Source of the DNA: Candidatus Hydrogenedentota bacterium
GTDB taxonomy: Bacteria > Hydrogenedentota > Hydrogenedentia > Hydrogenedentales > JAGMZX01
NCBI GenBank assembly: GCA_029556545.1
Contig: JAKQEQ010000035.1
Location: 1 to 47,342, forward strand
Direction: 5' to 3'
DNA length: 47,342 nucleotides
Translations under genes and position numbers: made by a program
Notes under the pieces: generated by a model
What the model saw: only the letters and a program-made list of their open reading frames with translations
The model's database searches: none
What the model was told of the DNA's origin: nothing
In this document: positions 15,900 through 29,031 of the stretch, in pieces
How the letters are laid out: the number at the start of each line of letters is the position of its first letter
Numbering within the stretch: position 1 is the stretch's first letter

Positions 15900-18800
15900 T
15901 CAGGGCGCGGGCGGCGCCTGGGCCGATACGCAGATATTGTCCACGGAGAAACCGAGGAAGTCATTCACGCTTTCATCGAAACTGTCGAAGGTGAACTGAA
16001 TAACCACCTCGCTCGAACCCGCCGCAAACGAGATATCGAGCATCGCCGTGTACCACATGGGTCCGCCGTTGAGTGTCTCGGATATCTTCTGACCTTCAAA
16101 TCCTCCTTCGAACTGGCCTTCGCCTTCGCCGCCCGTGCCGTCGTCGCAGATTTGGGACGGGGCCGTCGGCGACCCGCTGTCGTTGTTGTCGGCGCGCACG
16201 GTGAAGTTGCTGCCGCCGTCCGTCGAGATGAACACACTCGCGCGGTCGTAGGGATTGAGATGCTCGGTCTCGCAGAGGTAGTCAAAACGCAACATGACCG
16301 TCCCGCCCGCATAGGCGCTCAAGTCGATGACCGGCGAGGTGAGTTCGCCCATGACCGTGGTGAGCATATCGTAATTGCAGGTGCCATCCATGTTGAAGCT
16401 CTGGACGAAGGTGGCGCCGGCGGGCTGCAAGAGCGCCGCGCACTGATCGGTGCGGTGCCAGAGACCGCTGGCGGTAAATCCGTCGTCGCCCGCCTCGAAG
16501 TCCGCGAAGAAGATGCAGGGGCACAGCAGTTGGCCGTCATCGGGGCAGAGCGCGTTCAGACAAGGGCCAAACACTTCGACGGTGCGGGTCTGCTGCTGCG
16601 CGGCGTTGCCCGTGCTGTCCGAGACGTCATAGGTGATGACATAGGCGCCCGGCGTGAAGGGATCGACCGTATCTCCACCGATCACGATCTCGGCGGTGAG
16701 ATCGCCGTCGCACATATCCGACGCGAACGCGCCGGGTTCGGTGTAATCCTGGCCACAGCACAGGACCATATCCCCATCGATAAGCAGAAGCAGAGGCGCC
16801 AGCGTGTCCTCGACGGTAACGGTGCGCGTCACCTGATCGGCCGCGTTGCCGTGGGAATCCATCGAATCGTAGGTGACGACGTAGACGCCCGGCGTATAGA
16901 GATCGACGGTGTCGCCGCCGACCTCGACCGGGGCCTCGAACTCGCAGTCGTCCAGCGCGTACGCGCCGGGGACATAGTCGGGCGAACCGCATTCCATCGT
17001 GATGTCGGGGTCGCCAAACAGGTAGATTTGCGGTGGGGTCGTATCGACAACGGTGACCGTGCGGGTGACCTGTGTCGCCGGGTTGCCCGCGCTGTCGATC
17101 GCGTCGTAGGTGATGATGTACACGCCCACCGAGAGCAAATCGACCATGTCGCCGCCGATCGAGGGCTGCACAGGGCCTTCGCAGGCGTCCATCGCCAAAG
17201 CGCCGGGGTCGAGGAAGTAGTCTTCGGTGCACTCGATTGTCATCTCGGCGTCGCCAATGAGCGTGATGACCGGCCCTTCCGTGTCCACAATATCGACCGT
17301 CCGCGTGATCTGCGCGGCGACATTGCCAGAACTATCGGCCGCGTCGTAGGTGATCATGTAGGCGCCCAGGGTTTGCACGTCCACGGTGTCGCCGCCAGTC
17401 TGGAACCCAAGGCCCGGTTCGCAGGCATCGAAGACGGTGACACCCGGATCGACGAAGGGCACGCCGCATTGCCACGTCAACGGGTCATCGCCGATCAAAG
17501 TCAGGACGGGTGCGACGGTGTCCACCACAGTAACCGTGCGCATCTGGGGCGTCGCGGCATTGCCGGCATCGTCGATGGCGTCGTAAGTGACGGTGTAGTC
17601 CCCGGGCGTCGATGTGTCGACCGTATCGCCGCCGGTCTGTACGGGGACGTCGCCTTGGCAGATATCGAGCGCGGCCGCCCCAGGGTCGACGAACGGGTCG
17701 CCGCACTCGACGGTGATTTGTGCGTCGCCGTTGAGCGTAATCACGGGCGGCGTGGTATCCACGACAGTGACGACGCGCGTGACTTGCGTGGCTTGGTTCC
17801 CGGCGTTGTCTGCCGCGTCATAGGTGATTAGATAGTCGCCGGGAGTCGAGGTGTCGACGGCATCGCCGCCGGTCTGCACGGGGACGTCGCCTTCGCAGAC
17901 ATCCACCGCCGTGGCGCCGGGGTCGCTGAACGGGTCGCCGCACTCGACGGTCACTTGCACGTCGCCGTTGAGCGTAATCACGGGCGGCGTGGTATCCACG
18001 ACGGTGACCGTGCGCGTGACTTGTGTGGCCTGGTTTCCGGCGCTGTCCACGGCGTCATAGGTGATGATGTAGTCGCCGGGAGTCGCCGTGTCGACGGCAT
18101 CGCCGCCGGTCTGGACAGGCGTGTCGCCTTCGCATGCATCTACCGCCGTTGCGCCGGGGTCGGTGAACGGTTCGCCGCACTCGACGGTCATCTGCGTGTC
18201 GCCGTTGAGCGTGATCACGGGCGGCGTGGTGTCCACGACGGTGACCGTGCGCGTGACTTGTGCGGCCTGATTTCCGGCGCTGTCTTCCGCGTCATAGGTG
18301 ACGACGTAATTGCCCGGCGTCGCGGTATCGACAGTTCCGCCGGTTTGCACGGGTAAGTCGCCTTCGCAGACATCCAGCGCCGTTGCTCCGGGGTCGATGA
18401 AAAGCGCACCGCACTCGACGGTCATTTCGACTGCGCTGTTGAGCGTAATCACGGGCGGCGTGGTATCCACGACGGTGACCGTGCGCGTGACTTGCGCGGC
18501 CTGATTCCCGGCGCTGTCTTCCGCGTCGTAGGTGACGACATAATTGCCGGGCGTCGCGGTATCGACAGTTCCGCCGGTTTGTACTGAGACATCGCCTTCG
18601 CAGGCGTCCAGCGCCGTCGCGCCGGGATCGTTGAACGGGTCGCCGCACTCGACGGTCATTTGCGCCGCGCCGTTGCGCGTAATCACCGGCGGCGTGGTAT
18701 CCACGACGGTGACCGTGCGCGTGACTTGTGTGGCCTGGTTCCCGGCGCTGTCCGCGGCGTCATAGGTGATGGTGTAATCGCCGGGCGTCGCGGTGTCGAC

Positions 18801-21572
18801 TGAGTCGCCGCCGGATTGCACCGAGACATCGCCTTCGCAAATGTCGAGCGCTGTGGCGCCGGGGTCGACGAAGGGGTCGCCACACTCGACGGTGAGTTGA
18901 GCGTCGCCGTTAAGCGTAATCACCGGCGGCGTGGTGTCCACGACGGTAACCGTGCGGGTGACCTGCGCAGCTTGGTTCCCGGCGCTGTCCGCAGCATCGT
19001 AGAAAATGACGTAGTTGCCAGGTATAGCCGTATTCACCTTTTCTTCGCCGCCGCCTTCGCTGGCCTGCACGGGCACGTCGCCTTCACAGAGATCGAGCGC
19101 CGTCGCTCCAGGATCAATAAACGGTTCTCCGCATTCGGCGGTCATTTGCGCCGCGCCGTTAAGCGTGATGACGGGCGGCGTCGTATCCACGACGGTAACC
19201 GTGCGCGTAACCTGCACGGCCTGGTTTCCGGCGTTGTCGGTGGCGTTGTAAGTAATGACGTAGTTTCCGGGCGTCCCGGTATCGACCGTGCCTGCCGTTT
19301 GGACAGGGACGTTGCCTTGGCAGGCGTCGAGCGCGGTAGCGCCCGGATCAACGAAGGGGGTTCCGCATTCGACAGTCATTTGCGCCGCGCCGTTGAGCGT
19401 AATCACGGGCGGCGTCGTATCCACGACGGTAACCGTGCGCGCGACTTGCACTGCTTGGTTTCCGGCGTTGTCGGTGGCGTTGTAAGTAATGACGTAGTTT
19501 CCGGGCGTCGCGGTATCGACCGTGCCTGCTGCTTGCACGGGGACGTTTCCTTGGCAAGCGTCGCGCGCGGTAGCGCCTGGATCAATGAAAAGGGAGCCGC
19601 ATTCGACGGTTATTTGCGCCGCGCCGTTGAGCGTAATCACGGGCGGCGTCGTATCCACGACGGTGACGGTGCGTGTGACTTGCGCGGCTTGGTTGCCGGC
19701 GCTGTCCGCCGCGTCATAGGTGATGGTGTAATTGCCAGTTGTCGAGGTATCGACGGTGCCGCCGATTTGCACGGGGACATCGCCTTCGCAAATGTCCAGC
19801 GCTGTCGCGCCTGGGTCGGTGAACGGCTCGCCGCATTCGACGACAAATTGCGCGGTGCCGTTGAGCGTGATCACGGGCGGCGTCGTATCCACGACGGTGA
19901 CCGTTCGCGCGACTTGGGTTGCCTGGTTTCCGGCGCTGTCCGCCGCGTCATAGAAAATAACGTAGTTGCCGGGCGTTCCCGTGTTCACCTTCTCTTCGTT
20001 GCCCCCTTCGCTCACTCGGACCGGCACATCGCCTTCGCAGGCGTCGAGCGCCGTCGCGCCCGGATCAACGAAGGGCGTTCCGCACTCGACGGTCATTTGG
20101 GCCGCCCCGTCAAGCGTAATCACGGGCGGCGTGGTATCCACGACGGTAACGACGCGCGTGACTTGTGCGGCCTGGTTCCCGGAGTTGTCCGTCGCGTCGT
20201 AGGTGACGATGTAATTGCCGGGCGTCGCGGTATCGACTGTGCCCGCGGCTTGCACGGGCACATCGCCTTCGCAGGTATCGAGCGCCGTAGCGCCCGGATC
20301 GACGAAAGGCGTTCCGCACTCGATGGTCATTTGCGCCGCGCCGTTGAGCGTAATGACGGGCGGGGTGGCATCCACCACGTTGACCGTACGTATGACCTGA
20401 GCGGCCTGATTTCCAGCGCTGTCCGCTGCGTCGTACGTGATCGTGTACACGCCCGGCGTCGCGGTATTGACCAGACCGCTCGCCTGAACCGGGACTTCGC
20501 CTTCGCACGCATCGAGCGCGGTGGCGCCGGGGTCCGTGAACGGCGCGGGACACTCGACAGACATCTGCGCATTGCCCAATAGCGTGATGACCGGCGGCAG
20601 CGTATCCTCGACAATAACGGTGAGGGTAAAAGGTTCCGCCGCATTGCCGGAAGAATCCGATACCGTATAAACGAGCACGTACGTGCCCGGCGTGCTCAAA
20701 TCAACCGTACCCTGCACGACAAGGTTCGCCGTCAGGTCTCCTTCCTGTTCATCCGTGGCCGTGGGCGTTTCGAAACTCTCGCTACCGCATTCGACGTGTA
20801 TTGTCTCCGCGTTCGTGCCGCCAGCGCCATAATTGATGGTAGGCGGCTCTTGGTCGGTCCGCACGAGGGCCGTATCGGGCGCGCTGTCCAGTTCGCCGTC
20901 ATTCACAATGAGGGTCAGGACGTATACGCCGTGGGTTGACGTGGTGAACGACGGCGTGGCCGAATCCGCGCCCTCCAGCGTGAACGGCGCTTCGTCGCCC
21001 CCGCCGCCTTCTTGCACCGCGGCGGTCCAGGCGTAGGTCAACGGCTCGCCTTCCGGGTCGTAACTCTCGGTTCCATCGAGCATTACGGCCTGCCCGAGCG
21101 TGGCGACCCGGTTGGGGCCTGCATTCGCGACAGGTGGCAGATTGGGCGACAAGACCGTGATGTACTTGGGCTTGTAGACATTGACGACCGACGTTTGGCT
21201 CGCTTTGTTGCCGTTCCCGTCGACGGAATCCTCACGGATGAAGACAGTCAGGCCCACGTCATACTTGCCCGGCGCACGATAAATATGGATCGTCGTCTTT
21301 CCCTTGCCCACCGCGCCGTCGCCGAAGGTCCAGAAGTAATCAAGGACGGTTATGGTCGGGCGGCTCCCGTCTCGGAACTTGTTCCCGAGCACATACGGAG
21401 CGATAGCCTGCACATCGGCCTGGAACGTGACCGTCAAGGCCGCGTAACCGATGCGTGGCGCGCCCACGAAATCCGCTCGTACCTTGTCGAACCCGAGCGG
21501 ACAGCCGCTAAGCATGATAACAGCCGCCAACAGCAGGACAACATCAAACAGCCGACGATTTGCGTTCCCCAC
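15900..21572 (-). CDS. Giant surface lipoprotein with PKD and about 17 DUF5011-like repeats
   Basis: The GTG at 21572 (GGAGG eight bases upstream) gives 1890 residues. The N-terminus is a lipoprotein signal with lipobox LSGC. Then follow a PKD-like domain (FWTFGDG), a second PKD/cadherin-like domain (PPVANAGPNRV), one divergent Ig-like unit, and 17 tandem 75-80-residue units of the form PPVITLNG...VECG.PFVDPGATALD.CEGDV...AGNQA...RTVTVVDTT. The C-terminus is an adhesion-like beta-sandwich (FFADFEAGDDGFTASG). Almost every unit has two Cys (VECG and D.CEG), probably an internal disulfide. The protein should be a long rigid stalk on the outer surface. It is transcribed from 21666-21694, divergently from the porin. 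Confidence 0.92.
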   Translation of the reverse strand: MGNANRRLFDVVLLLAAVIMLSGCPLGFDKVRADFVGAPRIGYAALTVTFQADVQAIAPYVLGNKFRDGSRPTITVLDYFWTFGDGAVGKGKTTIHIYRAPGKYDVGLTVFIREDSVDGNGNKASQTSVVNVYKPKYITVLSPNLPPVANAGPNRVATLGQAVMLDGTESYDPEGEPLTYAWTAAVQEGGGGDEAPFTLEGADSATPSFTTSTHGVYVLTLIVNDGELDSAPDTALVRTDQEPPTINYGAGGTNAETIHVECGSESFETPTATDEQEGDLTANLVVQGTVDLSTPGTYVLVYTVSDSSGNAAEPFTLTVIVEDTLPPVITLLGNAQMSVECPAPFTDPGATALDACEGEVPVQASGLVNTATPGVYTITYDAADSAGNQAAQVIRTVNVVDATPPVITLNGAAQMTIECGTPFVDPGATALDTCEGDVPVQAAGTVDTATPGNYIVTYDATDNSGNQAAQVTRVVTVVDTTPPVITLDGAAQMTVECGTPFVDPGATALDACEGDVPVRVSEGGNEEKVNTGTPGNYVIFYDAADSAGNQATQVARTVTVVDTTPPVITLNGTAQFVVECGEPFTDPGATALDICEGDVPVQIGGTVDTSTTGNYTITYDAADSAGNQAAQVTRTVTVVDTTPPVITLNGAAQITVECGSLFIDPGATARDACQGNVPVQAAGTVDTATPGNYVITYNATDNAGNQAVQVARTVTVVDTTPPVITLNGAAQMTVECGTPFVDPGATALDACQGNVPVQTAGTVDTGTPGNYVITYNATDNAGNQAVQVTRTVTVVDTTPPVITLNGAAQMTAECGEPFIDPGATALDLCEGDVPVQASEGGGEEKVNTAIPGNYVIFYDAADSAGNQAAQVTRTVTVVDTTPPVITLNGDAQLTVECGDPFVDPGATALDICEGDVSVQSGGDSVDTATPGDYTITYDAADSAGNQATQVTRTVTVVDTTPPVITRNGAAQMTVECGDPFNDPGATALDACEGDVSVQTGGTVDTATPGNYVVTYDAEDSAGNQAAQVTRTVTVVDTTPPVITLNSAVEMTVECGALFIDPGATALDVCEGDLPVQTGGTVDTATPGNYVVTYDAEDSAGNQAAQVTRTVTVVDTTPPVITLNGDTQMTVECGEPFTDPGATAVDACEGDTPVQTGGDAVDTATPGDYIITYDAVDSAGNQATQVTRTVTVVDTTPPVITLNGDVQVTVECGDPFSDPGATAVDVCEGDVPVQTGGDAVDTSTPGDYLITYDAADNAGNQATQVTRVVTVVDTTPPVITLNGDAQITVECGDPFVDPGAAALDICQGDVPVQTGGDTVDTSTPGDYTVTYDAIDDAGNAATPQMRTVTVVDTVAPVLTLIGDDPLTWQCGVPFVDPGVTVFDACEPGLGFQTGGDTVDVQTLGAYMITYDAADSSGNVAAQITRTVDIVDTEGPVITLIGDAEMTIECTEDYFLDPGALAMDACEGPVQPSIGGDMVDLLSVGVYIITYDAIDSAGNPATQVTRTVTVVDTTPPQIYLFGDPDITMECGSPDYVPGAYALDDCEFEAPVEVGGDTVDLYTPGVYVVTYDSMDSHGNAADQVTRTVTVEDTLAPLLLLIDGDMVLCCGQDYTEPGAFASDMCDGDLTAEIVIGGDTVDPFTPGAYVITYDVSDSTGNAAQQQTRTVEVFGPCLNALCPDDGQLLCPCIFFADFEAGDDGFTASGLWHRTDQCAALLQPAGATFVQSFNMDGTCNYDMLTTVMGELTSPVIDLSAYAGGTVMLRFDYLCETEHLNPYDRASVFISTDGGSNFTVRADNNDSGSPTAPSQICDDGTGGEGEGQFEGGFEGQKISETLNGGPMWYTAMLDISFAAGSSEVVIQFTFDSFDESVNDFLGFSVDNICVSAQAPPAP
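16566..20598 (-). repeat. Tandem coding repeats of about 230 bases
   Basis: Seventeen Ig-like units repeat at DNA level with long shared stretches around the junction coding VTVVDTTPPVITLNG. Units 2 to 13 are most alike; the four nearest the C-terminus are more divergent. Units three and seven positions into the array carry the same extra loop (SEGG.EEKVNT), which suggests that blocks of units were duplicated. Confidence 0.9.
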
Positions 21573-21665
21573 GGGTTGCCCCTCCTCTCTGAATGGAAGA
21601 CCACACGATCCCAACTCACAATTCGGCGCGGATACGCCTCATTCCCGAATGAACCGCTCAACGCT

Positions 21666-28121: not shown

Positions 28122-28724
28122 TCAATTCCACCAACTGTGCCAGACGAGGCCCGCGTAGTCCCAGAAAACGTTCCAGGCGTTTCGGAAGTCCGCCGTCACG
28201 CTGACAGGGGCGAAGACGCCGATGGGGAGGGCCGCCGGGATGTTGCCCCGGGTGTATTCGAGCATCCACGTTCCAGGGGTCATGTTATACCCCTTGCCCT
28301 GTTTCGGTTCGAGAACGGCGCAGTCTCCCGGCAGGTAGAGGGTCGGCGCCAACTGGCCCTCTGTATACGTGCGCATTTCCCCGGCGAACATGCAATCCCA
28401 GACCGTCATGTCGGCGTACCGCCCCGAGAAGCCCTCGCTGCCGATAGGCGTGCCGAAGATGAGGATGTATTCCTTCGTGGAAGCGTAGAGAATGGCCATC
28501 TGGCCAAGCGTGCCGCCGGTTCGGTTGAAGTGCCAATGGAGGTCTTCGCGGATTTGTTTCGGGTAACGGGTTTTCAGTTCCGCGACAATATCCGCAACGG
28601 CCTGTTCGATAGGCTTGTCGATTCCCAACAGGGATGTCTCGTGAATTTCCTCCGGCGTGAATTTCAGGTTGCCGCACCCGGCAATCAGTAGTATGGCGGA
28701 TAGTCCCAACGGCCAGATTCTCAT
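28122..28724 (-). CDS. Sigma-1 receptor/ERG2-like lipoprotein
   Basis: The 200-residue protein (ATG 28724) begins with a lipoprotein signal, MRIWPLGLSAILLIAGC, lipobox Cys17. The rest matches the ERG2/sigma-1 receptor family along its whole length: ASTKEYILIFGTPIGSEG parallels human HASLSEYVLLFGTALGSRG, SGRYA parallels SGRYW, and PGTWMLEYTRGNIP parallels PNTWMVEYGRGVIP. The ligand-binding Tyr103 and Glu172 of sigma-1 correspond to Y86 and E156; an Asp (D110) lies near the Asp126 site with a one-residue shift. Fungal ERG2 isomerises sterol Delta8 to Delta7; sigma-1 binds sterols and lipophilic amines. No sterol-pathway gene is in the window. Here the cupin-like barrel would be lipid-anchored in the envelope instead of the ER. 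Confidence 0.88.
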   Translation of the reverse strand: MRIWPLGLSAILLIAGCGNLKFTPEEIHETSLLGIDKPIEQAVADIVAELKTRYPKQIREDLHWHFNRTGGTLGQMAILYASTKEYILIFGTPIGSEGFSGRYADMTVWDCMFAGEMRTYTEGQLAPTLYLPGDCAVLEPKQGKGYNMTPGTWMLEYTRGNIPAALPIGVFAPVSVTADFRNAWNVFWDYAGLVWHSWWN

Positions 28725-29031
28725 GATGCACCCCACTTCCGCGGCGTCGATGCCGGTTTCGTATGTTCGGGTCTTTCCGGACGGCGCACGTGTCCGTCCG
28801 TGGGCAATTCGCGACCGACAGTGTAGCGACAATACGCCGTTCTCGACGTGAGTTCAACCGCGCGAAATCACCCTTCGACTCGCTGTAACGCGGTGGCGAA
28901 CGCGCGCATACGCAGGACGGCACGCCTCGGGTTCCCAAGCGCTTGCCGCGGCGTGGCGCGAAGGTTGGCGGAAGCTCCGCGACGGCGGATACAATGGGGA
29001 ATATCGGAAGACACGGGGCGGTGATCACGCG
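28725..29031. other. Divergent intergenic region
   Basis: These 307 bases lie between the sigma-1-like gene and the nucleotidyltransferase pair. The minus-strand promoter at 28829-28857 serves the former. On the plus strand a good -10, TACAAT (28990-28995), lies about 40 bases before ATG 29032, with only TTGGCG at a long 19-base spacing. No further gene is supported. Confidence 0.5.
28829..28857 (-). promoter_or_regulatory. Candidate promoter of the sigma-1-like gene
   Basis: Minus-strand TTGAAC (28852-28857), 17 bases, then TATTGT (28829-28834), each four of six. The leader to ATG 28724 would be about 100 bases. Confidence 0.45.

Follow-up and report, generated by a model that had tools for sequence, protein, structure and literature searches.

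What does a predicted lipoprotein of the ERG2/sigma-1 receptor family do in a bacterium whose genome lacks the genes of sterol synthesis? The question is raised by a single gene in the window (the whole stretch of DNA analysed, 47,342 nucleotides from a Hydrogenedentota genome). The sigma-1 receptor is targeted by drugs, and there is debate about its natural ligand and its origin. A preliminary description of the window had recognised the gene as a bacterial homolog of this family and had proposed that its product may bind a hopanoid, a sterol or a lipophilic amine. A literature search, which covered few subscription papers, found no paper on a bacterial sigma-1 lipoprotein or on sterols in Hydrogenedentota.

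The gene, its predicted fold and its pocket

The open reading frame identified in the preliminary description is real and lies on the minus strand (28122-28724). It encodes 200 amino acids, from an ATG at 28724 to a stop codon at 28122-28124. A TTG start at 28832 (236 amino acids) was considered and rejected: it would bury the signal peptide, and a copy from the same genus (L004, 74% identical) has no such extension. The frame of this copy opens just one codon upstream of its own ATG, which supports the ATG start. The dN/dS ratio between the two copies is about 0.10 (about 0.07-0.10 for close pairs) and the gene is therefore under purifying selection.

Membership of the family is well supported. 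The PF04622 profile matches with an E value of 1.5e-45 and 155.6 bits (the curated cut-off is 21 bits) over profile positions 21-199 of 210. A phmmer comparison with the human sigma-1 receptor (5hk1) gives an E value of 2.8e-26, with a collinear match of residues 13-191, and BLASTP gives 34% identity over 179 amino acids. This agrees with the collinear similarity over nearly 180 residues reported earlier from the sequence alone. The three motifs then quoted (for example, GFSGRYA) are all present, and the 10 of 14 identities counted between PGTWMLEYTRGNIP and human PNTWMVEYGRGVIP were confirmed. The protein was also said to be closer to sigma-1 than to yeast ERG2. This is correct for pairwise identity (34% versus 30%), the yeast sequence being one whose sole check is its own PF04622 score of 316 bits.

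An AlphaFold2 model computed with 15 related sequences (pLDDT 90.4, pTM 0.85) predicts a cupin-like beta-barrel, the ligand domain (residues 64-160; 28245-28535, minus strand), and two C-terminal helices (residues 162-199; 28128-28241, minus strand). The helices correspond in VIA-align to alpha4 and alpha5 of sigma-1; they are rich in aromatic residues and, by charge count, non-basic. The solved structures that match the model best are all sigma-1 receptors (Foldseek E 1.8e-20). Superposed with VIA-align on the crystal structure 5hk1_A, the model gives a Z score of 29.0 and an rmsd of 2.1 A over 199 residues; with 8wue_C, from a steroid soak, the rmsd is 1.2 A over 181 residues. The next matches are unrelated cupins with Z scores of about 10. 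The predicted fold is thus well supported as that of sigma-1.

The pocket residues singled out in the preliminary description were located by alignment. Tyr86 (28467-28469, minus strand), which is invariant, corresponds to Tyr103 of the human pocket. Glu156 (28257-28259, minus strand), invariant across the homologs compared, corresponds to Glu172, the carboxylate that receives the ligand amine, and lies inside the predicted barrel. The acid partner of Glu172, Asp126, is also kept, as Asp110 (28395-28397, minus strand). All three equivalents are retained in each of the six Hydrogenedentota lipoproteins, and the pocket acids and aromatics rank among the best-conserved positions of the alignment. 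The Asp110 position is invariant in A1 and A3 and is Asp in 20 of 32 other bacterial homologs.

The family as a whole shows two patterns here. Position 126 (sigma-1 numbering) is Asp in sigma-1, in the Hydrogenedentota lipoproteins and in these 20 other bacterial homologs, and Phe in 12 bacterial sequences as well as in yeast ERG2 (the sequence used above), which has Asp at 124. Asp is also found at position 124 in 12 bacterial sequences, apparently the same ones. The catalytic acid of the family may therefore occupy either of two alternative positions, 124 or 126.

Judged by a list of pocket residues for Xenopus sigma-1 (PMC8913746), three positions have changed: Trp89 is Thr72, Trp164 is Met148 and Val84 is Asn67. 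With two pocket tryptophans lost and Asn in place of Val84, the ligand need not resemble sigma-1 drugs.

Signal peptide, predicted export and gene neighbourhood

The protein begins with a predicted lipoprotein signal peptide (residues 1-16, MRIWPLGLSAILLIAG; 28677-28724, minus strand). This ends at the lipobox Cys17 (28674-28676, minus strand), the predicted lipidation site, which was recognised by a PROSITE PS51257-type match (GLSAILLIAGC). The 12 residues before Cys17 have a mean Kyte-Doolittle value of 2.05. A lipobox thus stands in place of an N-terminal transmembrane anchor, as the preliminary description had it. All six Hydrogenedentota members have a signal peptide whose hydrophobic stretch is followed by a terminal Cys. 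Five of them fit the strict PS51257-type pattern; the other (L010) has an atypical lipobox, LCTGC. No lipoprotein signal peptide was found in the 38 homologs from other phyla when their start codons were considered: nearly all begin right at the domain, and the single pattern match falls upstream of its start codon.

The C-terminus provides a second line of evidence. Over the final 20 aligned positions, which in sigma-1 belong to the membrane-facing helix, the six lipoproteins have a mean net charge of -0.83 and 6.2 aromatic residues, compared with +3.8 and 1.8 in 30 other (sterol-linked) homologs. By the positive-inside rule, a segment that moves to the other side of the membrane is expected to carry fewer positive charges and more aromatics. 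The shift seen here fits that expectation and is evidence for export separate from the signal peptide. From these sequence features we strongly infer that the Hydrogenedentota protein is exported and lipid-anchored.

The surroundings of the gene give no clue to its function. In the window it has no companion on its own strand and is flanked by a metallophosphoesterase gene and an unassigned plus-strand open reading frame. No neighbouring gene is shared among the six Hydrogenedentota loci, whose immediate neighbours all differ, so no partner was identified and an operon clue is ruled out; nor is there at these loci an operon partner or transporter that hints at a ligand. Three features of these regions may be recorded separately. 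The window also carries (15903-21614, minus strand) a gene for a predicted large surface protein of 1904 amino acids, in which 18 Ig-like domains (PF16403) are arranged in tandem, together with PKD domains and a putative lipobox (MLSGC). In one Hydrogenedentota genome a Cas9 gene (L075:10043-14492), followed by apparent cas1 and cas2 genes, lies directly beside the lipoprotein gene, probably by coincidence. In a genome of the same genus as ours, a gene for a 1515-residue protein that combines a kinase domain and numerous WD40 repeats (L071:1192-5736, minus strand) adjoins the family gene.

Distribution of the family and of sterol genes

The PF04622 family is sparsely distributed. Of 68 Hydrogenedentota genomes, 6 carry it (all of them drafts with a completeness of 88-96%); in Myxococcota the figure is 32 of 377, and in Planctomycetota 1 of 392. 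The single planctomycete copy is cytosolic and sterol-linked, and the lipoprotein form is absent from these 392 genomes. Further homologs occur in Rokubacteria and in the cyanobacteria Calothrix and Rivularia. Mobile carriage was considered and rejected, as there were no plasmid or phage matches and none that could be confirmed in viral contigs.

In other phyla most homologs are cytosolic, and the presence of the family goes with sterol synthesis. Among Myxococcota, a strong squalene epoxidase match is present in 25 of 32 carriers versus 1 of 30 non-carriers, the latter having been taken from the top of the list and not sampled at random. Calothrix and Rivularia have the gene directly after one for an epoxidase-cyclase fusion and beside that of a Rieske protein; a reductase and a 3-beta-HSD-like gene are found nearby, together with a P450 gene in Rivularia. 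At two other loci (L017 and L021) the family gene adjoins an ERG24 gene. The fused squalene epoxidase-oxidosqualene cyclase of the two cyanobacteria has about 1114 amino acids (L022:957-4301 and L023:1538-4879), and several Myxococcota genomes contain comparably long open frames that match epoxidase. A homolog of the lipoprotein is also carried by Minicystis rosea, which makes cholesterol (PMC12004948). Bacterial ERG2-like enzymes as such are already known: a gene for C-8 isomerisation has been reported in the Calothrix sterol cluster (PMC10202945) and ERG2 in clusters of sponge symbionts (PMC9531527).

The Hydrogenedentota carriers present a different picture. None of the six genomes contains a squalene epoxidase, a true squalene or oxidosqualene cyclase, or a PF00494 protein (squalene synthase). 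A PF00494 protein is needed for squalene by either known route. In the genome of the window, the sole cyclase match above the cut-off is a weak one and corresponds to the TED domain of an alpha-2-macroglobulin. The lack of sterol genes nearby, noted in the preliminary description, holds both for the immediate neighbours and genome-wide, and is well supported. It makes an endogenous sterol or hopanoid ligand unlikely.

In the trees the six lipoproteins form one clade (support 100/100). This clade groups with five cytosolic proteins (L014, L019, L056, L059 and L061) with support of 90/95, or 70/84 in a second tree. These five may be another group that has parted from sterol synthesis: an epoxidase match was found in none of their genomes, and both the cyclase and squalene synthase are missing in four, the fifth (G086) having both. 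Together, the two groups suggest that one branch of the family gave up sterol synthesis and that some of its members were relocated to the envelope. The joint branch is moderately supported, and gaps in draft genomes could contribute to the absences; gaps alone could not plausibly account for the absence of three unlinked genes in 10 of 11 genomes. What is new is a branch that is apparently anchored to the envelope and no longer tied to sterol synthesis, a parallel to the animal sigma-1 receptor.

The same trees bear on the earlier suggestion that the gene could inform the origin of the eukaryotic family. The trees give no preference for or against a special link to sigma-1: a clade of Hydrogenedentota and sigma-1 has an AU p value of 0.26, with two sigma-1 and three eukaryotic sequences in all. 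A clade of sigma-1 and ERG2 has an AU p value of 0.016, but it comes from three long-branched eukaryotic rows, one of them the yeast sequence mentioned above, and is not taken as a result. As the lipoprotein branch looks derived and bacterial ERG2-like genes have already been reported, the suggestion is a weak one.

Proposed function and comparison with known systems

The reading that we prefer, with a probability of roughly 0.55, is that the product is an exported, lipid-anchored member of the ERG2/sigma-1 family that acts as a lipid-binding receptor or carrier. Cys17 would anchor the protein by its lipid either to the outer face of the inner membrane or to the outer membrane, and the two C-terminal helices would rest on the membrane. 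The barrel would enclose a pocket with Tyr86, Asp110 and Glu156. The ligand would be an amphiphilic molecule that carries either a protonatable amine or a polar head and comes from the bilayer or the environment. It would enter from the membrane between the two helices, with Glu156 and Asp110 holding it in place. For sigma-1, a salt bridge between the Glu172 equivalent and the amine of the ligand has been described, as has entry of ligands between alpha4 and alpha5 (PMC8913746). Ligand binding, the class of ligand, the route of entry and the absence of catalysis are what we infer only. A scavenged amphiphilic lipid bound at the membrane would be most likely. This need not be a sterol; sphingoid bases, reported as sigma-1 ligands (PMC9962145), would be a reasonable candidate. 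The cell makes no squalene, sterol or hopanoid, and the protein is therefore not a step of a sterol pathway. Several points count against this reading: there is no operon partner or transporter, pocket residues of sigma-1 have changed (Trp89, Trp164 and Val84), lipidation and the side of the membrane are predictions, the lipobox of L010 is atypical, and the six genomes are drafts.

A bolder form of the proposal, which we advance only tentatively, is that of a prokaryotic sigma receptor: a sterol isomerase that in bacteria was uncoupled from its pathway, exported and re-used in the envelope as a receptor or carrier of amphiphilic amines or sphingoid-like lipids. This would have happened before the switch that gave rise to the animal sigma-1 receptor, or independently of it.

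The retention of the full acid pair of the family counts against the preferred reading, as isomerase activity may persist. The main rival, because these acids are intact, is that the protein is still an isomerase, exported to move a ring double bond in sterols or steroids that the cell takes up from algae or other eukaryotes and either assimilates or degrades. We regard this as rather unlikely. The active-site Glu and Asp are indeed invariant in the lipoproteins, and most bacterial relatives occur in sterol-making genomes, several of them inside the gene cluster. The names of three carrier MAGs (MJ-time, AlinenLipids and LaPlata) also suggest lakes or a river, where algal sterols would be plausible. 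However, linked steroid genes are found at none of the six loci, and a lone isomerisation without its neighbouring steps has no obvious use. Human sigma-1 has the same residues and is not known as an isomerase.

A structural or chaperone-like role in the envelope through protein-protein contacts, with the pocket as a relic or as a stabilising element of the fold, is less probable still. Sigma-1 is described as a chaperone-like trimer, and the lack of a gene partner suggesting a pathway would fit such a role. The pocket acids and aromatics are, however, among the best-conserved positions, and selection on the gene is strong.

Two further explanations have very little probability left. An ordinary isomerase of sterol biosynthesis in this organism would be expected from PF04622 membership and from the pattern in other phyla, but is contradicted by the missing squalene synthase, epoxidase and cyclase in the six carriers and by the predicted export, the sterol-linked bacterial members all being without a signal peptide. 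Binding of the cell's own hopanoid or sterol, an option in the preliminary description, would suit the hydrophobic pocket and the membrane contact in the model; it is made very unlikely by gene content, since this genome and the five other carriers have neither a known route to squalene nor a squalene-hopene cyclase. Finally, although the family is better known from eukaryotes, eukaryotic contamination of the assembly or recent acquisition of the gene from a eukaryote can be dismissed, given six independent Hydrogenedentota genomes that form one clade, with signal peptides, an intronless gene and ordinary bacterial contigs, and proteins nearer to those of Myxococcota (up to 44% identity) than to the human receptor.

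The preferred reading, an envelope lipid-binding protein, suggests that an enzyme of sterol synthesis has been re-used. The separation of the family from sterol synthesis is indicated in bacteria, including the related cytosolic group, which is mostly without the pathway. A small exported bacterial relative that keeps the pocket acids in hosts that make no sterols provides a simple system for asking what is bound by the fold in a non-isomerase role, and the switch from an enzyme to a receptor-like protein can be studied by comparing the branches.

Among known systems, the closest is the sigma-1 receptor (SIGMAR1; PDB 5hk1, 7w2b and 8wue). It shares with the window protein the Pfam family, the predicted fold of the whole domain (Z about 29), the Tyr, Asp and Glu of the pocket and the C-terminal helices lying on the membrane, and neither has an associated role in a sterol pathway. 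The receptor is anchored by an N-terminal transmembrane helix, whereas the window protein has a lipoprotein signal peptide, and its pocket Trp89 and Trp164 are replaced here by Thr and Met. Yeast ERG2, the C-8 sterol isomerase, is of the same family, with the same Glu and 30% identity, but has Phe at 126 and Asp at 124 (identity and residues from the yeast sequence used above) where the window protein has Asp at 126; it also functions in a sterol pathway, which is absent from the window genome. The bacterial ERG2-like proteins of Calothrix, Rivularia, Minicystis rosea, Rokubacteria and Planctomycetota are 33-44% identical and have the same pocket residues, but they lack a signal peptide, have a basic C-terminus and occur alongside squalene epoxidase and cyclase. 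The bacterial sterol-binding proteins BstA, BstB and BstC (PMC10942540) resemble the window protein in its proposed envelope lipid-binding role on the periplasmic side. They belong, however, to unrelated families (BstA is an RND transporter and BstC a TRAP T-component) and their host is a sterol-producing methanotroph.
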